Part shown: piece after piece, positions 54,321 to 64,000 of the stretch
How the letters are laid out: each line of letters begins with the position of its first letter
How positions within the stretch are numbered: the stretch's first letter is position 1
Assembly: GCF_003719295.1 (NCBI RefSeq)
Contig: NZ_RFLW01000005.1
Location: 121,216 to 185,215 of the forward strand
Length of the DNA: 64,000 nucleotides
Direction of reading: 5' to 3'
DNA from: Haliea alexandrii
Lineage (GTDB): Bacteria > Pseudomonadota > Gammaproteobacteria > Pseudomonadales > Halieaceae
Notes under the pieces: model-generated
Database searches by the model: none
What the model saw: the letters and a program-made list of their open reading frames with translations, nothing else
What the model was told of the DNA's origin: nothing
Translations under genes and position numbers: made by a program

Positions 54321-56060
54321 ATGAAACTGACCCGTTACCTGATCATTCTGCTGGGCGTGACTCTGCTGCCCGCCCCCCTCGCGCAGGCACAGGTGCCCGC
54401 CGCAGAAGAGCCGATCATCGATTTCGGCAGCCGCTTCCTGCCCACCGTAGCACGCGAGGGTATGGTCGTCGGTCCCGAGCGGCTTGCGGCGGAAATCGGC
54501 CTCGATGTACTGCGCCGCGGCGGCAATGCGGTGGATTCGGCGGTCGCCACCGGCTTTGCGCTGGCGGTGAGCTACCCGCGCGCCGGGAATCTGGGTGGCG
54601 GCGGCTTTATGCTGGTGCATCTCGCCGAGGAGGACCGGCAGACGCTGATCGACTACCGCGAAACAGCCCCCGCCAGCGCCACGCGCGACCTGTTCCTGAA
54701 TGCGCAGGGCGAGGTGGACCAGCGACGGGCCTATTTCAGCCACCAGTCCGCCGGTGTTCCCGGCACCGTGGCGGGCCTGGTGCTGGCCCAGAAGCGCTAC
54801 GGCACATTGCCCCTCGCGGAGGTCATGGCGCCGGCCATCACCCTGGCCCGTGACGGCCTGGAGGTCTCTTTCGCACTCAACCAGGAAATAACCGCGCGTG
54901 CCGAACGCCTGGCCACCAACGCTGAGGCGCGCAAGCTGTTCTTCGACGCTGAAGGGCGAGTCCCGGCGATTGGTGCCCGCTGGCAGCAACCGGATCTGGC
55001 CTGGACACTGGAACAGATTGCCCGAGACGGACACGAGGGCTTTTATGCCGGCGAGGTCGCTGACCGTATTCTCGCGGAGATGAAGGCGGGGGATGGCCTG
55101 ATCAGCCGCGCGGATCTGGCGGCGTACCGCGCGATCGAGCGCGAGCCGGTCCGCGGTCGTTACAAGGATTTCGAGGTCGTCTCCACACCACCCCCCTCTT
55201 CCGGCGGTATCCACATCATCCAGATACTGAACATCCTGGAAGGCTATGACCTCCAGGCCATGGGGCACAACAGCGCCGCCTACATTCACCACCTGGCGGA
55301 GGCGATGAAACTGGCCTATGCCGACCGCAGCCGCTACCTGGCAGACCCCGATTTCGAGCCCGTGCCGGTCGGTGCGCTTATCGACAAGGCGTACGCCGAG
55401 CGGCAGCGCGCCCTGATCAAACCCGGTCGTGCAACCCCCGCGACGGAGATTGCGCCGGGCAACGTACTGGTCGACGCCAGCCATGACACCACCCATTACA
55501 CCGTAGCCGACCGCTTCGGTAATGTGGTGAGCAATACCTACACGCTCAATTTCAGCTTTGGCTCACACATCGCCGTGCCGGGAACAGGCATGCTGCTGAA
55601 CAACGAAATGGCCGATTTTGCCGCCAACCCGGGTCAACCCAACCCCTTTGGCCTGGTGGAGGGCGAAGCCAACAGCATCGAGGGAGGCAAGCGCCCGCTG
55701 TCGTCCATGAGCCCCACCATGGTGTTCCGTGGGGGCAAACCCTGGATCGCCACCGGCAGCCCCGGCGGCAGCCTCATCATCACCTCGGTACTGCAAACGG
55801 TGCTCAATGCCATGGCTTTCGACATGAACATTGCCACAGCGGCGGCGGAACCGCGGGTGCACCACCAGTGGCAGCCGGACAAGCTGGTTGTCGAGCAAGG
55901 CGTCAGCCCGGATACCCTGAGCCTGCTGCGCGCACTGGGGCACAACGTGGACATTGCCGGGCGCACGCTGGGTCGCACGCAGTCGATCATGCTGGAACGG
56001 GGTTACCTGCTGGGTGCGACCGACACCCGTCGGCCCGGGGGATACGTCGCCGGCTACTGA
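54321..56060 (+). CDS. ggt: gamma-glutamyltransferase
   Basis: Ggt cleaves glutathione gamma-glutamyl bonds in the periplasm. The 579-residue precursor (E. coli 580) has a signal peptide to about residue 24 (AQA-Q) and a large subunit with GGNAVDSAVATGFALAVSYP, GNLGGGGFML and ETAPASATRDLF. The self-cleavage site DTTHYTVADRFGN puts the nucleophile Thr near residue 390 at the start of the small subunit. GSPGGSLI for substrate binding lies near the C-terminus. It is convergent with the thioesterase gene, overlapping by 7 bp. Confidence 0.96.
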   Translation: MKLTRYLIILLGVTLLPAPLAQAQVPAAEEPIIDFGSRFLPTVAREGMVVGPERLAAEIGLDVLRRGGNAVDSAVATGFALAVSYPRAGNLGGGGFMLVHLAEEDRQTLIDYRETAPASATRDLFLNAQGEVDQRRAYFSHQSAGVPGTVAGLVLAQKRYGTLPLAEVMAPAITLARDGLEVSFALNQEITARAERLATNAEARKLFFDAEGRVPAIGARWQQPDLAWTLEQIARDGHEGFYAGEVADRILAEMKAGDGLISRADLAAYRAIEREPVRGRYKDFEVVSTPPPSSGGIHIIQILNILEGYDLQAMGHNSAAYIHHLAEAMKLAYADRSRYLADPDFEPVPVGALIDKAYAERQRALIKPGRATPATEIAPGNVLVDASHDTTHYTVADRFGNVVSNTYTLNFSFGSHIAVPGTGMLLNNEMADFAANPGQPNPFGLVEGEANSIEGGKRPLSSMSPTMVFRGGKPWIATGSPGGSLIITSVLQTVLNAMAFDMNIATAAAEPRVHHQWQPDKLVVEQGVSPDTLSLLRALGHNVDIAGRTLGRTQSIMLERGYLLGATDTRRPGGYVAGY

Positions 56061-56866
56061 GCCCGCGGCAGCCGGACCTTGGCCGTCTGGCGGCTGATGG
56101 CCACCAGGTTGCCGGTGCTATCCCAATACTCGCCATCTTCCTCGATCACGCCGGACGTGAGGTGTTTGGAGAACAAACGCGCCTGCAGGGGGCCAGGCGC
56201 CGGTAATCCGCGCAGCTGTACGGTCAACTCCACCGTGGGCACCCAACCCACTACACCCAGCACATCGAATACGGGGGGCGGAAAAGCATCCGCGAACATA
56301 AGCAGGGCGATGGCATCAGGTGCGGCGCCATCCGCGTGCTGTACCCAGCCGCGAAATTCGCCGCTGCCGCTGGGCTCGCCGCCACGGAACACGGCTGCCT
56401 CCTCCACCAGACGAATGTCGACTCGCTGCCTGAACTCCAGGCCACTGTCGCCGCCGCTCACACACTCCTCCCAGGCCGGAAAATGGGGTCGAGCCTGCCC
56501 TGACCAGCTCGGGCCCTGCAAGCGTGCCAGCGTGGTGTAGGCCGCAGTCACCACCATCTTCAACTCACCGTCCTGATACACCCTCGCGCTGGCATGGCTG
56601 GTATTGCCGCCTGCGCGCAGCAGCTCGACGCGGCACTCGACCGGCCCCAGCGTGGTGGGCGCCAGATAGAACGCGTTGACAGCCAGCGGATCCTTGTGCG
56701 GCAGCGCTTCGCTCAGCGCCCTGCCGGCAATGGCCAGCACATACCCGCCATTGGGCACCGCGCCGATGCGCCAGCCAGCATGCAACTCTGCCGTCCACAG
56801 ATTCTCGCCGCGCCGTTGCACGGCGGTTTCCAGGGCAAACTGGCTGGGCGTGACAGGCTCTGACAT
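56054..56866 (-). CDS. acyl-CoA thioesterase family protein (TesB-like double hotdog)
   Basis: The 270-residue protein has a two-hotdog layout: WRIGAVPNGGYVLAIAGRALSEALPHKDPLAVNAFYLAPT at the N-terminal half (quoted in part here: PNGGYVLAIAGRA), and a C-terminal half with VPTVELTVQLRGLPAPG and SKHLTSGVIEEDGEYWDSTGNLVAISRQ (in part: EDGEYWDSTGNLV). It matches the TesB-like/'thioesterase family' of actinobacteria and Gammaproteobacteria. ATG 56864-56866 has GGAG five bases upstream; an ATG at 56902 is less likely. The acyl chain preference is unknown. Confidence 0.85.
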   Translation of the reverse strand: MSEPVTPSQFALETAVQRRGENLWTAELHAGWRIGAVPNGGYVLAIAGRALSEALPHKDPLAVNAFYLAPTTLGPVECRVELLRAGGNTSHASARVYQDGELKMVVTAAYTTLARLQGPSWSGQARPHFPAWEECVSGGDSGLEFRQRVDIRLVEEAAVFRGGEPSGSGEFRGWVQHADGAAPDAIALLMFADAFPPPVFDVLGVVGWVPTVELTVQLRGLPAPGPLQARLFSKHLTSGVIEEDGEYWDSTGNLVAISRQTAKVRLPRAQ

Positions 56867-56922
56867 GACGGCTCCGGAATCGGGTGGAAAGAAATGCGCC
56901 AAAACAGGCGCAGCCGCGTATT

Positions 56923-57014: not shown

Positions 57015-58271
57015 ATGAAAGGACTGTATTTTGCGGCGCTCCTGTTGGCAGGTGCGCTCGGCGCGAACCAGGGGTTCGCTGACACACTACCCGCGGCGCC
57101 TACCGAAGACACTGCGACAGATGATGCGGCCCAAGCGTCTGTCGCCAGCCACGACATAGGCGCCCCGGCACAACGGCGCGCGCTGCAGGAAGCCATCACC
57201 GACCTCGAAAGCGAGTACGGCGCCTACAGCCCGGTGCTGCCCGAGCGGCTCCTGAGCCTGGGGCTGGCCCTGCAGTCGGAGGGGCGCCACGCCGAAGCCG
57301 CCGCAGTATTCAAGCGCGGCACCCACCTGGCCCGGGTGAGCACCGGCCTCTACAGCCTCGACCAACTGCCCCTGTTGGAGTCCGAAATCGCCAGCCTGCA
57401 GGCCCTGGGGGACTATCGGGCCGTCGATGATCGGCAGCGCTACCTGTACCGTGTGCAAAGCAAAGCTCCGCTCTCTTCTGCGCAGCGCGTGCGGGCTTAC
57501 GTACACCAAGCCGACTGGCAGCGACAGGCCTTCCTGCTGAACATGGATGAGGAGCCGGGCTTACGCCTGCTGCAGATGTGGGAGTACTACCGGCTGGCGC
57601 TGACTGAAGTGCTTGAACAGAGCGGCGATAACTCCCGCGACCTGTTGCCCCCCCTGTACGGCATGCTGCAGGCGCAGTACCTGATTGCCGGGTATCGCTG
57701 GCCCGATAGCGGAGACAACACGGGCAATGGCTTCACCAGCAACAACCTGCGCCCGCTGGGCAACAGCTACCTGAGAGACAACTTCAACAAGGGCCGGGCG
57801 GTACTGCAGGCGATTTACGATCTCGAACAGCTACACGGCAGCGCCGACCCCGAGGCAGCGGCGCGCGCGCAGACCCTCATGGGTGACTGGTTGCTGTGGC
57901 ACGGTGACAGTGAAGGTGCCATGGCGGAGTATGCAAAGGTGCTCGCGGAACTTGCGGACGATGCCGCTGCCCAAGCCTTGTACAACGAGCTCTTTGCCGA
58001 GCCTGTGCCGCTGCCGGCCCTGGACGGCCTTGATGTACACGGGCCTCTCGCAGTGGAGGGGGATGGGGATATACTACTGGGGTTTAACGTCGCGGCCGAC
58101 GGCAAGGTCTCCGACCTGCAACGACTGGATGACTCCGGTACGGCGAACGGGCTCGCCAATCGGCTCATGCGCAGCTTGCGCAACACCCCGTTCCGACCGC
58201 GATTCGACCTCGCTTCCGGCACGCCGGTCGCCACCGACAACCTGGTTATGGCCTATGACAGTACACGCTGA
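57015..58271 (+). CDS. exported TPR-like protein with TonB-like C-terminal domain
   Basis: The 418-residue protein has a signal peptide (MKGLYFAALLLAGALGANQG, cleavage near GFA-DT). Helical repeats follow (PERLLSLGLALQSEGRHAEAAAVFKRG and GDWLLWHGDSEGAMAEYAKVLAELA, quoted in parts). The last 95 residues read like a TonB C-terminal domain: GDILLGFNVAADGKVSDL, NRLMRSLRNTPFRPRFDLASGTPV. It lacks the N-terminal TM and Pro-rich span of real TonB, so it is not an energy transducer. It is the first gene of the cluster, and its end overlaps the next gene by 17 bp. ATG 57000 is an alternative start. Function unknown. Confidence 0.78.
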   Translation: MKGLYFAALLLAGALGANQGFADTLPAAPTEDTATDDAAQASVASHDIGAPAQRRALQEAITDLESEYGAYSPVLPERLLSLGLALQSEGRHAEAAAVFKRGTHLARVSTGLYSLDQLPLLESEIASLQALGDYRAVDDRQRYLYRVQSKAPLSSAQRVRAYVHQADWQRQAFLLNMDEEPGLRLLQMWEYYRLALTEVLEQSGDNSRDLLPPLYGMLQAQYLIAGYRWPDSGDNTGNGFTSNNLRPLGNSYLRDNFNKGRAVLQAIYDLEQLHGSADPEAAARAQTLMGDWLLWHGDSEGAMAEYAKVLAELADDAAAQALYNELFAEPVPLPALDGLDVHGPLAVEGDGDILLGFNVAADGKVSDLQRLDDSGTANGLANRLMRSLRNTPFRPRFDLASGTPVATDNLVMAYDSTR

Positions 58272-59349
58272 AACATCAAATGCACTGACCCTGCTGCGCA
58301 GCGCGGGCTGCGCTGCATTGTGCCTGATGCTGGCGGGCTGCCCCAGTGCCAGCAACCCCACTCAGCCGTCCTCGTCACCCAGCACACCCTCCGCGTCGTC
58401 CAGCAGCAGCCCGAGCGCATCGTCTTCCAGCTCATCGTCCTCCAGCAATAGCCCGAGCTCTCCCACCAGCGGCAGCAGCGCATCAATGCCCTCAACAGCG
58501 GGTGGCTCACCCGGCAGCAGCGCGGGCACCCCCGACACAGGTGCGTCCGGAGCCCGGGACACTGCGCAGGCCGGTGGGGTCACGCAGCCGACACCCGCAT
58601 CCGCTACAGCTAGCGACCAGGGTACAGGCGGCGATCAGGGCACAGCCAATGCGAGCGCCGGCGACCCCGCAGGCGGCGGGCAACCGGCGGGTGAACCGGG
58701 CTTTGAAGCCAGCGCCGGCAGTACCGCCCTGCCCGACATGCGCGACAACCCAACGCTGGACCCCGGCACCCTCGCCGCTCTCGAAGCGGCCATGGAAGCC
58801 GCCGCGAAGGGCGGCAATGCAGGCACGGGGGAAGGCGCCGGCACCGCCAACGACGCAGGTGCAGCGTCGGGAGCAGGGCCGGGTGACACCCCAGGTCGCT
58901 TGCCAGGCAATGGCGGTGCCGGCACCGGGCCACTGACCCCGGCGGAACAAGTGGCCATTCTCGATGCGCGGCTGGAAGCCGGTGCGGGCGATTTCGACAC
59001 CATGATTCTTGAAGAGCAGGCCCGCCAGCGCAGCGCGCGCCGCGCCAGCAGTGACGATGTACCCGCCTCAGACTCCGCGGGTGGCGCCCCGGCCGGTGGC
59101 CGCGAGGGGCCCTACGGCGAGGATATCACCGTGGCCGGCGCCGGCGGCGGGCGTGGCAGCGTCAACACACCCGGGCGCCCGCCCCCCCCCAATACGGCCC
59201 GCTACCCGGCACCTGACGACATACCCAGCGGCAACGACGACGATGTCGTCGCCCGGCAGCTGCGCGAAGCGGCCATGCGTGAGCCCGACCCCGCAGTACG
59301 CGAAAAGCTCTGGGATGAATACCGCAAATATAAGGGACTCACTCCATGA
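58255..59349 (+). CDS. Ser/Gly/Pro-rich lipoprotein of unknown function
   Basis: The 364-residue protein has a lipobox LAGC about 27 residues in. About 35 residues that are mainly Ser and Pro follow, then a long Gly/Ala/Thr-rich region with low complexity. The more structured end holds PLTPAEQVAILDARLEAGAG and a charged C-terminal helix (VARQLREAAMREPDPAVREKLWDEYRKY, in parts). It has a nine-C homopolymer (59182-59190) coding Pro-Pro-Pro. It overlaps the preceding gene by 17 bp and the next by 4 bp. Probably outer-membrane anchored, with the flexible stretch as a stalk. No family recognised. Confidence 0.72.
   Translation: MTVHAETSNALTLLRSAGCAALCLMLAGCPSASNPTQPSSSPSTPSASSSSSPSASSSSSSSSSNSPSSPTSGSSASMPSTAGGSPGSSAGTPDTGASGARDTAQAGGVTQPTPASATASDQGTGGDQGTANASAGDPAGGGQPAGEPGFEASAGSTALPDMRDNPTLDPGTLAALEAAMEAAAKGGNAGTGEGAGTANDAGAASGAGPGDTPGRLPGNGGAGTGPLTPAEQVAILDARLEAGAGDFDTMILEEQARQRSARRASSDDVPASDSAGGAPAGGREGPYGEDITVAGAGGGRGSVNTPGRPPPPNTARYPAPDDIPSGNDDDVVARQLREAAMREPDPAVREKLWDEYRKYKGLTP
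59182..59190. repeat. nine-C homopolymer in lipoprotein gene
   Basis: Nine consecutive C within the coding frame of the Ser-rich lipoprotein (Arg-Pro-Pro-Pro-Pro). Homopolymers of this length in surface protein genes can slip during replication and switch the frame. Confidence 0.85.
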
Positions 59350-60539
59350 CCACCGCCCGGCTTGCGCTTGCTGCGCTGCTGCTGGTCACGCTGACCGCCT
59401 GCGTCAACCAGACCGTCAAAACCTCGGCGGTGCCGCCTCTGGAGCGCCCACCCCAGGCCGCGCCCGAGACGGCGCTACTGGACGTTGGCGTACTGGTGTT
59501 TGATCCCGGCCTTGACGAATATGACGAGGATCAGCAAATCTACCCCGAGGTGCGCAAGGCGGAAGCGCGCTTTATGCCCCGGCTGCTCGCCGAGGCCATG
59601 CAAAACAGCGGTGCCTGGGGTGCAGTGCGCGTCATTCCCTCCGACCGTCAGACCGTTGACCTGCTGGTCCGGGGGCGCATTGTGCACTCGGACGGTGAAA
59701 CCCTCGAGCTGCACATCGTCGCACGCGATGCGCGTGGTGCCGAATGGCTGGACAAGACCTACGAGGCCAACGCCAGCAAATACGCCTACACGCCGTCAAC
59801 GCGCAACAGCTACGACCCGTTCCAGGCGATTTACCACATGATCGCCAATGACCTTGTGCGCCGGCAGGAAACCCTCACCCTCACTCAACGGGAGGATATT
59901 CGCCTGATTACCGAGCTGCAGTTCGCCCGCAGCTTCTCTCCCGAGGCATTCGACGGCTACCTCACGGAGAACCGCAAGGGTGTCATGGAGGTACGCCGCC
60001 TGCCCGCAGAAGGCGACCCCATGCTGGAGCGTATTCGCAGCATCCGCGAGCGCGACCAGCTGTTCGTCGACACACTACAGGAGCACTACGGCTACTTCAG
60101 CGGCGAAATGCAGGTGCCCTATCAGGAGTGGCGCAAGATGAGCTACGAAGAGGCCATCGCGCTGCAGGAATTGCAGGCTGAGAGCCGGCGCAACCTGATC
60201 GCCGGCGGCGCGGCGATCCTTGCCGGCATTTATGCCGCAGGCAGCAGTGAACGTTCCAGCAGGGCCGCCGGCAACGTCGCCATCATCGGCGGGGGTTACC
60301 TGCTCAAGAGCGGCCTGGAAAAACGCGCCGAGGCACAGATTCACGTCGCTGCCCTGGAAGAGCTGGGCATGTCGCTGGAAGCGGAAATTACGCCGCAAGT
60401 GATTGAACTGGAAGACCGCACTGTCATGCTCAGTGGCAACGTTGAAGAACAATACGCCCAGTGGCGCGAACTGCTGGCGGACATCTACCAGGCCGAAGTC
60501 GGTCTGCTGGAACCCCTTCCAACCGTCGACAACCCCTGA
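59346..60539 (+). CDS. lipoprotein of unknown function, CsgG-like region possible
   Basis: The 397-residue protein has a lipobox LTAC at about residue 19. A soluble N-terminal domain follows (ALLDVGVLVFDPGL, PRLLAEAMQNSGAWGAVRVIP, VDLLVRGRIVHSDGETLELH) that recalls CsgG/CurK-style outer-membrane lipoproteins in shape, which is weak evidence. Then comes a Gly-rich hydrophobic stretch (LIAGGAAILAGIYAAGSS) and a helical end with QIHVAALEELGMSLEAEI. ATG 59346 overlaps the upstream stop by 4 bp. The coupled translation ties it to the cluster. Function is unknown. Confidence 0.72.
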   Translation: MTTARLALAALLLVTLTACVNQTVKTSAVPPLERPPQAAPETALLDVGVLVFDPGLDEYDEDQQIYPEVRKAEARFMPRLLAEAMQNSGAWGAVRVIPSDRQTVDLLVRGRIVHSDGETLELHIVARDARGAEWLDKTYEANASKYAYTPSTRNSYDPFQAIYHMIANDLVRRQETLTLTQREDIRLITELQFARSFSPEAFDGYLTENRKGVMEVRRLPAEGDPMLERIRSIRERDQLFVDTLQEHYGYFSGEMQVPYQEWRKMSYEEAIALQELQAESRRNLIAGGAAILAGIYAAGSSERSSRAAGNVAIIGGGYLLKSGLEKRAEAQIHVAALEELGMSLEAEITPQVIELEDRTVMLSGNVEEQYAQWRELLADIYQAEVGLLEPLPTVDNP

Positions 60540-60573
60540 TCCAGGGACCAGCCGCCACAAGGCCCATAGCCGC

Positions 60574-62100
60574 ATGACCAGCCCCAACGAGCCCGTTCAA
60601 CCCACACCCTTCAGTGTTGCCCAACCGGTCGCCAGTGAGGTGAAAAACAGTGGGCAGACCAGCAGCCAGTCGCGCTGGCTGATTCCGGCCCTGCTGTTTC
60701 TGGTGGCCTGTGCGCTGGCCGTGGTGTTTTGGCTGCCCTCCCAGCTTGGCCGCGAGCCGGGAGCTCCAGCTGCGCCTGTCCAGAGTTCGTCCGACACGGT
60801 CGACCAGGTGCCTGCTATGCCCGCAGCAGATTCCACAGAGCCTGCCGCCAGCCCCTGGTCAGACGCGCAACAGGCGCGCCTGCGCACGGCGGCGCAGGAT
60901 GTGTTGGCGCAGCTGGTGGAGCTGCAATTTGCGCTGGAGGAGCGTGGTGCCGACGTCTGGGCCGGTGCTGAGCTGGAGACTGCAAAAGCGGCGGCTGGCC
61001 GCGGCGATGCGCTCTATCAGGCGCGCGAGTTTGTTGCCGCCACCGAGGCCTACCGCGACAGCCTCACACAGCTGCAGGCAATCGAGGCGAATATCCCCGC
61101 GGTGCTGCAAAACGCACTGGACTCTGCAACCGCGGCACTGGAAAAAGGGGATGCACAAGGGCTGGAGCCGGCGCTGGCCACGGCGACGCTGCTCGCACCC
61201 GACGAACCCACCCTGGCGCAACTGCGCGAGCGTGCCGCGGCCATGGCCCCGCTACAGGCCGCGCTGGACCAGGCAGAGGCCCTGGAAAGCGCCGGTGACC
61301 TCGCCGGCGCCGAGACGGCCCTGCAGACGGCAATCCAGCTCGACCCCGCCAGTCAGCGAGCCGCTCGCGCCCTCACGCGCGTGCAGGCAGCCCATGCGGC
61401 CCAACGCTACCAACGCGCCATGAGCGAAGGCTATAGCGCCCTCGACGAGGGTCGCTTTGATGCCGCCGCCAGCGCTTTTGCCAGCGCACGCAAATTGCAG
61501 CCAGACAACCCGGAGATTGATGCTGCGGTGACCGAATTGCGCAGCACACAAAGTGCGGCCCGGTTGCGCGCCCTGCAACGCACCGCGCGTGACCTTGAGG
61601 CAAAAGAGGCCTGGGGCGATGCCGTGGCCAGCTATGAAGAGGCGCTTGCGGTGGACGCGACCCTGGTGTTTGCACAGGAGGGTCTGGCACGTGCGCAACC
61701 GCGGGCACGCCTGGACAGTCAACTGCGCGAGGCGCTGGCCGCACCGGAGCGGCTGGCAGACCCCGCCGTTGCCAAAAATCTGGAGCAGTTACTGAGCGAA
61801 GCGCGCGGGGTGACTCCGGCAGGGGACACACTCGCGCAGCAGATCGGGCAACTGGCGCAGCTTCTGGAACAGGCCAACACACCGGTCACGGTCACGCTGC
61901 GCTCGGACCAGCTTACCGCCGTGCTGGTACAACGGGTCGCCAGACTGGGCCAGTTTTCTGAACAGCGCCTGACGTTGCGTCCGGGCGAATACACCGCGGT
62001 GGGCACGCGGGAGGGCTACCGCGATGTCAGGGAAACCTTCACCGTGTCCGCCGACCAGGCACCAGCTCCCATTTTCATCGCCTGCACGGACCCGGTTTGA
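60574..62100 (+). CDS. membrane-anchored TPR-like protein
   Basis: The 508-residue protein has a short cytoplasmic N-terminus, one TM (about residues 33-53, LIPALLFLVACALAVVFWLP) and a long Ala-rich helical region. TPR-like units include ALYQAREFVAATEAYRDSLTQLQ, ESAGDLAGAETALQTAIQLDP and YSALDEGRFDAAASAFASARKLQPDNPEI (quoted in parts). The C-terminal 80 residues look like a PEGA-type beta domain (VTVTLRSDQLTAVLVQRVARLGQF, LRPGEYTAVGTREGYRDV). ATG 60574 starts before the TM. It is followed directly by the PEGA/FGE-like gene and shares its topology. Confidence 0.78.
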   Translation: MTSPNEPVQPTPFSVAQPVASEVKNSGQTSSQSRWLIPALLFLVACALAVVFWLPSQLGREPGAPAAPVQSSSDTVDQVPAMPAADSTEPAASPWSDAQQARLRTAAQDVLAQLVELQFALEERGADVWAGAELETAKAAAGRGDALYQAREFVAATEAYRDSLTQLQAIEANIPAVLQNALDSATAALEKGDAQGLEPALATATLLAPDEPTLAQLRERAAAMAPLQAALDQAEALESAGDLAGAETALQTAIQLDPASQRAARALTRVQAAHAAQRYQRAMSEGYSALDEGRFDAAASAFASARKLQPDNPEIDAAVTELRSTQSAARLRALQRTARDLEAKEAWGDAVASYEEALAVDATLVFAQEGLARAQPRARLDSQLREALAAPERLADPAVAKNLEQLLSEARGVTPAGDTLAQQIGQLAQLLEQANTPVTVTLRSDQLTAVLVQRVARLGQFSEQRLTLRPGEYTAVGTREGYRDVRETFTVSADQAPAPIFIACTDPV

Positions 62101-64000
62101 ATGAGCACTGAGCGCAAGCCCACACAAGCAATTGCCCCGAGCAGCTTCGAGCCACTCGATCAAGCGCAACCGCCCGCGGCGCGCCATGGACGCGGTTGGC
62201 GGCGCTGGCTTCTACCACTCGCCATCCTGCTGTTCGCACTGGTGATGGCATTCCTGTTCCTGGCGCGCTCGGTAGAGATCAGCACAGACACCACAACACC
62301 CGCAGACATCGACCTGAGCGGCTTCCACCTGCCGCTGGGCGGTCGCCTCCTGCTGCTGCCCGGGATTTACTCCCTGCAGATCGCCGCGCCGGGCTATGTC
62401 ACCCTGGAAACCGAGGTGGCCGTGAGTGAGGAGGCCAGCCAGCGTTTCCGCTACGAACTGCAGCCTGAACCCGGCATCGTGACCCTCCTCACACAGCCTG
62501 CTGGCGTAGCGGTCACCCTTGATAACGCCTATGCTGGCGAGGCCCCAATGAGCGCGCTGGAACTTGCCGCGGGCGTGCACGCGCTGGAACTGCGCCACCC
62601 GCGCTATCTGCCGCTGGATGTCACTCTGGAGGTCGCCGGCCGCGCACAGGAAGAGACGTTCACATTCAGCCTGTCCCCCGCCTGGGGCGTCGCCACCGTC
62701 AGCAGCGAGCCCGCAGGGGCAGATATTCTTGTCGATGGCGAGCCAGTCGCCACGACACCGGCCGCGGTGGAGTTGCTGCAGGGCGAGCGCCAGCTGCAGT
62801 TGCGCCTGCCCGGTTATGCGCCCTGGCAGCAAACGTTGATGGCGGAAGCCGGTAACGATATCGCCCTGGACACCGTGCAACTGCAGCCAGCTGCCGGGGT
62901 GCTTGAGGTCACCAGTACACCCAGCGGTGCCAACGTCACGCTGGATGGCGACTTTCAGGGCCAGACACCGGTGACTCTCAACCTGCTACCCGACACAGCG
63001 CAGCGGCTCATGTTGACGCGCCCGGGCTACCGGCGCCACAGCGAGACAGTGCAGCTGGCGGCTGGAGCCAGCGGGCGCAAGGCCATCACCCTGCAGGCCC
63101 AGTTGGGCGCCATCGATTTGCGGGTAAGTCCACCCGAGGCGGAGGTGCGTGTGAATGGGCGCCTGATCGGGCGCGGCAACCAGTCGCTGTCACTGCCCAC
63201 CGTCGAGCACCGGGTAGAGGTCAGCCTGGCCGGTCACCGCAGTGAGTCGCAGCGCATCACGCCGCGGCAAGGGTTGGAGCAGCGCTTCGAGGTGGCCCTG
63301 CAAACCGAACAGGAAGCCAGGGTGGCACAGGTGCAGCCTGAGGTGACCTCGGCCCTGGGGCAGACACTGCGCCTGTTCATCCCCGGCGAACACGGGCCCG
63401 ACAGCTTCACCCTGGGTGCCTCGCGGCGCGAGCCCGGCCGCCGCGCCAATGAAGTGCTGCGCCCCGTTACCCTGCGACGCATGTTCTACCTGCAGACAAC
63501 AGAAGTGACCAACGCCCAGTTCCGCCAGTTTCTGGCCAGCCACAATTCCGGGCAGATTGAGGGCAACAGCCTCAACCGTGAGCACCAGCCCGTCGCACAG
63601 GTAAGCTGGCAGCAGGCCGCCCAGTTCTGCAACTGGCTCAGCCAGCGCGAGGGTCTGCCCGCCTTCTACACCCAGAACCAGGGCATCGTGACCGGTTTCA
63701 ACCCCGCAGCCACCGGCTACCGCTTGCCGACAGAAGCGGAATGGGCCTGGGCCGCTCGGGTCAAGGGTGAAACGCGTCTCACCTTCCCCTGGGGCGAGAG
63801 CTTTCCCCCCACTGCCGTTGTCGAGAACTATGCAGACAGCAGCTCGGCCTACGTCACCGGCCGCACCATCAATGGCTACAACGACGGCCAGGTGGTGAGC
63901 GCCACCGTCGCCAGCTTTGCCGCCAACCATAACGGCCTGCACGACCTCGGCGGCAACGTGGCGGAGTGGGTGCACGACGTCTACCAGATCCCGGCCGCCA
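62101..64000 (+). CDS. membrane-anchored PEGA-repeat protein with C-terminal FGE/SUMF1-like domain, 3' end cut by window edge
   Basis: From ATG 62101 the frame is open to the window edge (633 codons). A 40-residue Pro-rich cytoplasmic tail and one TM (LLPLAILLFALVMAFLFLA) lead to at least four PEGA-like repeats (VTLLTQPAGVAVTLDNAYAG; SEPAGADILVDGEPV; TSTPSGANVTLDGDFQG; VSPPEAEVRVNGRLIG). A formylglycine-generating-enzyme (SUMF1) fold follows: YLQTTEVTNAQFRQF, PVAQVSWQQAAQFCNWLS, GYRLPTEAEWAWAAR, GLHDLGGNVAEWVHDVY. PEGA repeats are surface-domain folds; the FGE-like domain may be enzymatic or a binding module. The catalytic Cys region is beyond the window. It starts right at the stop of the TPR gene. 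Confidence 0.85.
   Translation, partial: MSTERKPTQAIAPSSFEPLDQAQPPAARHGRGWRRWLLPLAILLFALVMAFLFLARSVEISTDTTTPADIDLSGFHLPLGGRLLLLPGIYSLQIAAPGYVTLETEVAVSEEASQRFRYELQPEPGIVTLLTQPAGVAVTLDNAYAGEAPMSALELAAGVHALELRHPRYLPLDVTLEVAGRAQEETFTFSLSPAWGVATVSSEPAGADILVDGEPVATTPAAVELLQGERQLQLRLPGYAPWQQTLMAEAGNDIALDTVQLQPAAGVLEVTSTPSGANVTLDGDFQGQTPVTLNLLPDTAQRLMLTRPGYRRHSETVQLAAGASGRKAITLQAQLGAIDLRVSPPEAEVRVNGRLIGRGNQSLSLPTVEHRVEVSLAGHRSESQRITPRQGLEQRFEVALQTEQEARVAQVQPEVTSALGQTLRLFIPGEHGPDSFTLGASRREPGRRANEVLRPVTLRRMFYLQTTEVTNAQFRQFLASHNSGQIEGNSLNREHQPVAQVSWQQAAQFCNWLSQREGLPAFYTQNQGIVTGFNPAATGYRLPTEAEWAWAARVKGETRLTFPWGESFPPTAVVENYADSSSAYVTGRTINGYNDGQVVSATVASFAANHNGLHDLGGNVAEWVHDVYQIPAA

Follow-up and report, generated by a model that had tools for sequence, protein, structure and literature searches.

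Introduction

The described systems closest to the locus reported here are the 5:2 motors TolQR, ExbBD and MotAB, the type IX secretion system (T9SS) with its GldKLMN/PorKLMN proteins, and a motor class put forward recently, in which paired TPH-vWA proteins are predicted to rotate inside TolQ-like rings (Mol Biol Evol 2025, msaf138; PMC12204202). In the text available from that paper, the paired TPH-vWA motor is given neither a name nor a function. Here we analyse a gene cluster of Haliea alexandrii (genome of 3.96 Mb), whose first five genes, A to E, lie at the end of a stretch of 64,000 nucleotides (the window, contig C8:121216-185215). Judged by sequence, A to E make up only the opening part of a longer gene cluster, which is widely conserved in bacteria and extends the recently predicted motor class. 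What is new is a set of further parts beside the motor trio, together with a tiny exported protein, M.

With TolQR, ExbBD and MotAB the cluster shares a protein of the MotA/TolQ/ExbB family, a pair of pore threonines and an aspartate in the helix of the B subunit, but it has two distinct B subunits, in which vWA heads replace the ExbD-type domain. The likeness to the TPH-vWA family, as far as the available text of msaf138 describes it, lies in a tolQ-like gene accompanied by two different genes for transmembrane vWA proteins, an aspartate in the pore helix, and the lack of tolR or exbD nearby; for H and I this lack was tested on their contig in the H. alexandrii genome, where no ExbD/TolR (PF02472) match was found. 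This assignment to a family whose seed is from Idiomarina follows gene arrangement and description. The difference lies in the partners, since the text section of msaf138 names no PEGA-FGE, lipoprotein, transmembrane TPR, Hsp70/FHA or small-peptide partner (Fig. 4c of that paper may draw neighbours), and its main text, the figure apart, yielded none of the words 'PEGA', 'FGE', 'SUMF1' or 'sulfatase'. The available text of two other papers (PMC9389320 and PMC12505986) does not mention vWA. We found no description of the whole gene set in the literature searched, preprints and most subscription journals being outside its coverage. The first-pass annotation, made from the window alone, had recognised no described system with this gene set; that holds for the set as a whole, but a motor trio of similar kind had already been predicted, although without name or function in the text available.

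Results

All five genes lie on the plus strand, and the open reading frame (ORF) listing bears out the compact arrangement first noted for them: A and B overlap by 17 bp and B and C by 4 bp, a gap of 34 bp separates C from D, and D abuts E. The five genes had been taken for an exported or membrane-bound cluster, which stands for the genes themselves; E is not its end, however, and the window cuts the system in half. When the locus was extended to the right, as had been proposed, a TolQ-like motor protein (F), two TolR/ExbD-like partners with vWA domains (H and I) and the tiny conserved gene M were found beyond the window (Table 1).

F matches the MotA/TolQ/ExbB model PF01618 with 54.3 bits (cut-off 22.9), and its family profile gives a weak alignment (E 0.008) to solved TolQ, which covers the GTV and ATA segments. 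The TolQ-type pore threonines T189 and T222 are each present in 97 of 97 rows of the F alignment. A TolR/ExbD-like aspartate in the transmembrane pore helix is found in all 106 rows of I and in all 98 rows of H that have a letter at this position, two partial rows having been dropped from the H alignment beforehand. Six H rows from another class are gapped here, but their frame reads ...GFN[IV]AFLDIM upstream of the first ATG, GTG or TTG, so that the start would be another codon; with them the count becomes 104 of 104. The metal-site motif DxSxS of vWA domains is conserved in both H and I, the Pfam VWA match of I itself lying below the cut-off (17.9 of 23.8), and the last residues of H are WP-COOH in each of the 105 complete rows.

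A scan of named genomes with gene I yielded at least 583 relatives, the best 80 of which were used for locus counts; the nearest by gene I are a Haliea sp. metagenome-assembled genome (90% identity) and Kineobactrum sediminis (81%). Gene order was counted in the 55 of these 80 loci that reach 9 kb or more upstream of I; in 54 of the 55 the genes B-C-D-E-F-H-I follow in this order on one strand. The accessory genes occur in these 54 loci as follows: G in 53, J in 51, K in 50, L in 49 and A in 37, with A, J, K and L undercounted where the stretch ends early, in some loci inside A. Six loci that belong to another class (L167-L169, L172-L174) also have the core B-C-D-E-F-H-I in this order; G was not found in any of the six, nor were A, J, K and L, but L167, L169 and L174 end no more than 0.4 kb after I. 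Since the gene order recurs in different families and in a second class, the arrangement is more than chance, and the proposal of a conserved envelope system, as opposed to a gene set restricted to one genome, is upheld.

Within the family of the host, gene I was detected (E up to 0.001) in 127 of 140 genomes, 76 of 78 high-quality genomes and 27 of 28 genera; two of the 13 genomes without a match are of high quality. In the host's class it matched 22 of 274 genomes, 20 of which we judge to hold true H/I genes. The two left out of the H/I and co-occurrence counts are G237 (E 9.9e-4) and G090, which carries a different TPH system: an F-like MotA protein, an FHA-like protein, a PP2C-like phosphatase, a TPH coiled-coil protein and a trypsin-like protease, by eye, are encoded there in a row (L054:8122-12750, C1). 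H and I are paired in all 20 genomes except G087 and G098, where the contig ends. Across the phylum, 26 of 398 genomes matched, 16 of them strongly, and 13 of the 16 belong to one family (f199) of another class; the 10 weak matches (E 1.8e-5 to 8.8e-4), like that of G237, were regarded as coiled-coil or vWA matches arising by chance. Gene C, found in 19 of the 274 class genomes, occurs together with H/I in 18, alone in 1, is missing beside H/I in 2, and 253 have neither (Fisher P 5e-25, shared ancestry ignored).

Departures from the common arrangement are few. F is placed after I in L044 and lies on a separate contig in G213. The one split operon, in G799 (L121), has B-E about 32 kb from F-L, with B-E, M and F-L all kept. 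In G087, an assembly of 300 contigs, H is at a contig end and C gave no match. G185 holds a decayed copy of the operon (L176:8370-11174, C1), with C and D fragmented next to transposase-like sequence; a match search found no H/I there despite the presence of C. Gene I had no match in the plasmid collection, and plasmid-borne mobility was rejected on this ground.

Gaps between neighbouring genes of the operon have medians of -17 to 34 bp, except that between E and F, with a median of 288 bp (86 loci). An ORF search in this gap located M, which has a signal peptide, a low-complexity middle and the C-terminal end EQISEDLSVSFPVDI. The longest ORF of the gap reaches at least 30 aa in 85 of 86 cases, and 80 of these 85 end in DI; in the remaining five gaps, as in L174, the correct M frame is visible in a scan for the tail pattern. 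In 86 of 88 loci this pattern, [FYL]P-x-D-I-stop, follows E at a distance of no more than 620 bp, mostly as FPVDI, and the other two loci have the variant tails IPSDM and MPSDI. Both strands of the same loci (3.64 Mb) hold 95 occurrences in all, the 86 M tails included. The tail makes use of each of the three stop codons and each of the three Ile codons. Conservation over the last 15 codons is 0.84, 0.90 and 0.46 at codon positions 1, 2 and 3 (80 ORFs chosen for their DI end), and the tail proline is present in all 74 DI-ending ORFs of at least 60 aa. This is the mark of selection acting on a protein, and M is shown to be a coding gene.

In the other class M is only 33-56 aa long in the 5 loci where an ORF was found, which would correspond to a signal peptide, presumably cleaved, followed by roughly 16 residues; the gammaproteobacterial locus L049 has an equally short M (34 aa). 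In the split genome G799 M stands before F, not after E; L040, L047 and L050 likewise have M tails ahead of F, and in L044, where F is relocated, M stays after E. None of the four M proteins scanned passed any NCBIfam model.

Among the envelope parts, B has a conserved motif near its C-terminus (DDDVVARQLREAAMREPD..REKLWDEYRKYKG in relatives), which a regular expression recovers in 69 of 74 members, the other 5 having a variant by eye. The starts of both B and C look lipobox-like by eye. The Gly/Ala-rich, hairpin-like stretch of C lies near residues 287-320 (by eye; 6 of the 42 matched stretches viewed). Pfam gave nothing but single-member matches among 52 members of the C family, and NCBIfam no match for the C of H. 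alexandrii. The C profile resembles those of J and K weakly, signal peptides included, while J and K themselves have no convincing Pfam match (15 and 18 members). A paralogue of C elsewhere in the genome (L175:9734-11586, C5), in which the Gly hairpin was not seen, adjoins a small lipoprotein-like gene, and the other operon families were not found in the surrounding 20 kb.

D has one transmembrane segment, and TPR_2 matches 16 of 22 members; the resemblance of its C-terminus to PEGA is moderately supported, with an hhalign probability of 91 against the first PEGA of E and 45-75 against the other four repeats. In E, five PEGA stretches and the FGE domain exceed the Pfam cut-offs. The two alignment columns which we take to be the catalytic cysteines of FGE hold Met and Glu in E, and no conserved Cys column was found at these positions among 80 family members. 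E was therefore rejected as an FGE-type enzyme, because both catalytic cysteines are absent, and the first-pass view of E as part of a surface-binding or modifying module finds no support here. Besides E, a single FGE-domain gene was found in the genome (L006:4403-6735, C1); it is EgtB-like, and with the EgtD-like methyltransferase gene after it looks, by eye, like a pair for ergothioneine synthesis.

Table 1. Genes of the cluster. A to E are given on the scale of the window; coordinates of locus L004 plus 55000 give the window scale.
Gene	Position	Strand	Product features	Status
A	57015..58271	+	Signal-peptide-like start, TPR region, TonB C-terminal-like end	Accessory, poorly conserved
B	58255..59349	+	Lipoprotein, ~290-aa Ala/Gly/Ser/Pro-rich linker, C-terminal motif	Core
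C	59346..60539	+	Lipoprotein, family without Pfam model, Gly/Ala-rich hairpin-like stretch	Core
D	60574..62100	+	One N-terminal transmembrane segment, periplasmic TPR region, PEGA-like C-terminus	Core
E	62101..64170 (L004:7101-9170; leaves the window at 64000)	+	689 aa, one N-terminal transmembrane segment, five PEGA stretches, FGE-like domain	Core
M	L004:9178-9432 (window scale 64178-64432)		84 aa, small exported protein, PxDI tail	Core
F	L004:9442-10239		265 aa, MotA/TolQ/ExbB protein	Core
G	L004:10241-11497		~418 aa, Hsp70-like/FHA	Accessory
H	L004:11510-12598		362 aa, N-terminal transmembrane segment, coiled coil, vWA	Core
I	L004:12607-13602		331 aa, N-terminal transmembrane segment, coiled coil, vWA	Core
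J	L004:13562-14233		Lipoprotein	Accessory
K	L004:14230-14892		Lipoprotein	Accessory
L	L004:14902-16332		M48 protease	Accessory

Upstream of the cluster, on the opposite strand, lie a gamma-glutamyltransferase-like and a thioesterase-like gene (window positions 54321-56902, by eye). A scan for promoters and terminators gave results at chance level.

Discussion

We read the cluster as encoding a proton-driven trans-envelope machine, in which a vWA-headed rotor is coupled to an outer-membrane assembly, and put the probability of this reading at about 0.6. F, on the strength of its homology to TolQ and its conserved pore threonines, would form the pentameric ring of a 5:2 motor, and H and I, one copy each, would make up the dimeric axle inside it. 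Each of the two would consist of an N-terminal pore helix with a proton-carrying Asp, a coiled-coil stalk and a periplasmic vWA head; with roughly 100 residues at 0.15 nm per residue of coiled coil, the stalk would measure about 15 nm. Proton flow would turn the H/I stalk, and the heads would act on an assembly of D, E, B, C and M that may reach, and do its work at, the outer membrane. In such an assembly D and E would serve as arms anchored in the inner membrane and built of TPR, PEGA and FGE-like domains, B as a long flexible tether lipoprotein, and C as a lipoprotein with a Gly hairpin. G, a cytosolic protein with Hsp70-like and FHA regions, probably regulates the motor by phosphothreonine binding.

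The PxDI C-terminus of M is probably a docking peptide, and its tail is perhaps a ligand of the vWA metal site; integrin-type chemistry is the basis for the idea that this site binds the Asp of M or its free carboxylate. A more specific picture, tentative and on the whole rather doubtful, is that of an undescribed rotary machine in which an H/I heterodimeric vWA rotor turns in the TolQ-like ring, and its heads bind in repeated cycles to the free end of M, the FPVDI-type tail, thereby pulling or turning an outer-membrane complex of B and C that is held by the PEGA/FGE arms.

Several points speak against a machine of this kind. F scores far below the NCBIfam cut-offs for TolQ, ExbB and MotA, and by hydropathy it has no more than 1-3 transmembrane segments. 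H and I carry a vWA domain instead of an ExbD-type or peptidoglycan-binding periplasmic domain. The lipobox pattern is present in only 51 of 74 B rows, partial rows included, and was not seen in two B proteins of the other class that were viewed; C is not detectable in G213. The 5:2 stoichiometry and the H-I heterodimer are a predicted assembly, and the contact between M and vWA is a guess.

The FGE-like domain of E raises the question of a T9SS- or gliding-like machine, for secretion or surface motility, in which F-H-I would play the part of GldL/GldM and E that of a PorK/GldK ring. Among solved structures this domain is nearer to PorK (E 5e-18) than to FGE (E 1.6e-12), and each of the 6 E proteins scanned has GldK as its top NCBIfam model; the cluster also has in common with T9SS a motor, here a predicted one, driven by proton motive force and an FGE-fold periplasmic protein. 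However, the E of H. alexandrii scores 104.7 bits, far under the GldK cut-off of 350, and an unrelated kinase-PEGA-FGE fusion, taken as a control from G796, a genome of the same order (L183:13-2199), scores 104.4 bits, although PvdO is its best FGE-type model. Because this control scores just as high, the likeness of E to PorK/GldK is not evidence for T9SS, and membership was rejected once the two scores had been compared. By eye, the control protein has PEGA-like repeats before its FGE domain, as E has; the repeats and domain are fused to a kinase there, whereas E is membrane-anchored and belongs to a motor operon. Unlike GldK/PorK, which are outer-membrane lipoproteins, E is anchored in the inner membrane and carries PEGA arms (a transmembrane segment is predicted in 79 of 88 rows, a lipobox pattern found in 4 of 88). 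The 10 operon proteins scanned gave no match to GldL, GldM, GldN or any other T9SS component, T9SS genes elsewhere in the genome not having been sought. We consider a T9SS-like role unlikely.

Gene A suggests a system of Ton/Tol type, which would stabilise the outer membrane or power uptake, with A as a TonB-like transducer. The TonB_C-like end of A (TonB_C in 4 of 7 family members, best E 9e-4; family profile against TonB of the PDB, E 7e-7), the TolQ-like F and the several lipoproteins fit such a role. TonB_C was not detected in the A of H. alexandrii itself, however, and beyond a signal-peptide-like start and weak TPRs (the former by eye) A has no transmembrane segment visible by eye. It is poorly conserved (19-28% identity to the other 6 family members) and was not detected in L038, L044, L045, L048, L049 and L051, each of which extends at least 2.6 kb beyond B, besides its modest count among the named loci. 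The genome has 6 further MotA/TolQ/ExbB and 4 ExbD/TolR matches, the latter on C1 and C5 near other MotA/TolQ/ExbB genes, so the cluster need not replace Ton/Tol, and TolR, TolA, TolB and Pal are not among the Pfam matches of proteins A-L. A Ton/Tol-type function thus seems improbable to us.

Still less probable, and by a good deal, is a complex for mechanosensing or signalling that would not work as a motor, in which envelope parts would sense force and G would relay it to Ser/Thr phosphorylation. G alone has no Pfam match. Searched against the PDB, however, the profile of its family hits Hsp70 nucleotide-binding domains (residues 92-270, E 5e-4) as well as FHA domains (residues 375-434, E 2e-3), and FHA was recognised in 3 and HSP70 in 1 of 43 members; moreover, the distant F-like/TPH pair of G090 adjoins, by eye, its FHA-like and PP2C-like genes. 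On the other side, G was not found between F and H, not only in the six loci of the other class but also in L038, L049 and L051. An anti-phage defence of Zorya type, to which a weak ZorA match of F (E 0.0024) would point, is hardly credible and was rejected along with other PADLOC defence systems, given that such a match would be expected of any TolQ-like protein, that the remaining PADLOC matches fall in the coiled coils of H and I without a ZorB or effector gene set (10 of the 12 proteins A-L scanned), and that I is near-universal in the family and unmatched among plasmids.

Conclusions

For the paired TPH-vWA motor, none of whose further partners is named in the available text of msaf138, the operon gives a parts list with invariant residues and tails, and named carriers with strain designations (Microbulbifer, Pseudohaliea rubra, Kineobactrum sediminis) make the motor testable. 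M is shorter than the usual ORF cut-offs, and automatic annotation may well miss such a gene. Conservation of so short a C-terminal tail in two classes points to a specific pocket that binds it; and if the rotor heads do bind this tail, the coupling of force in these envelopes would follow a principle distinct from the TonB/TolA boxes and from GldM.

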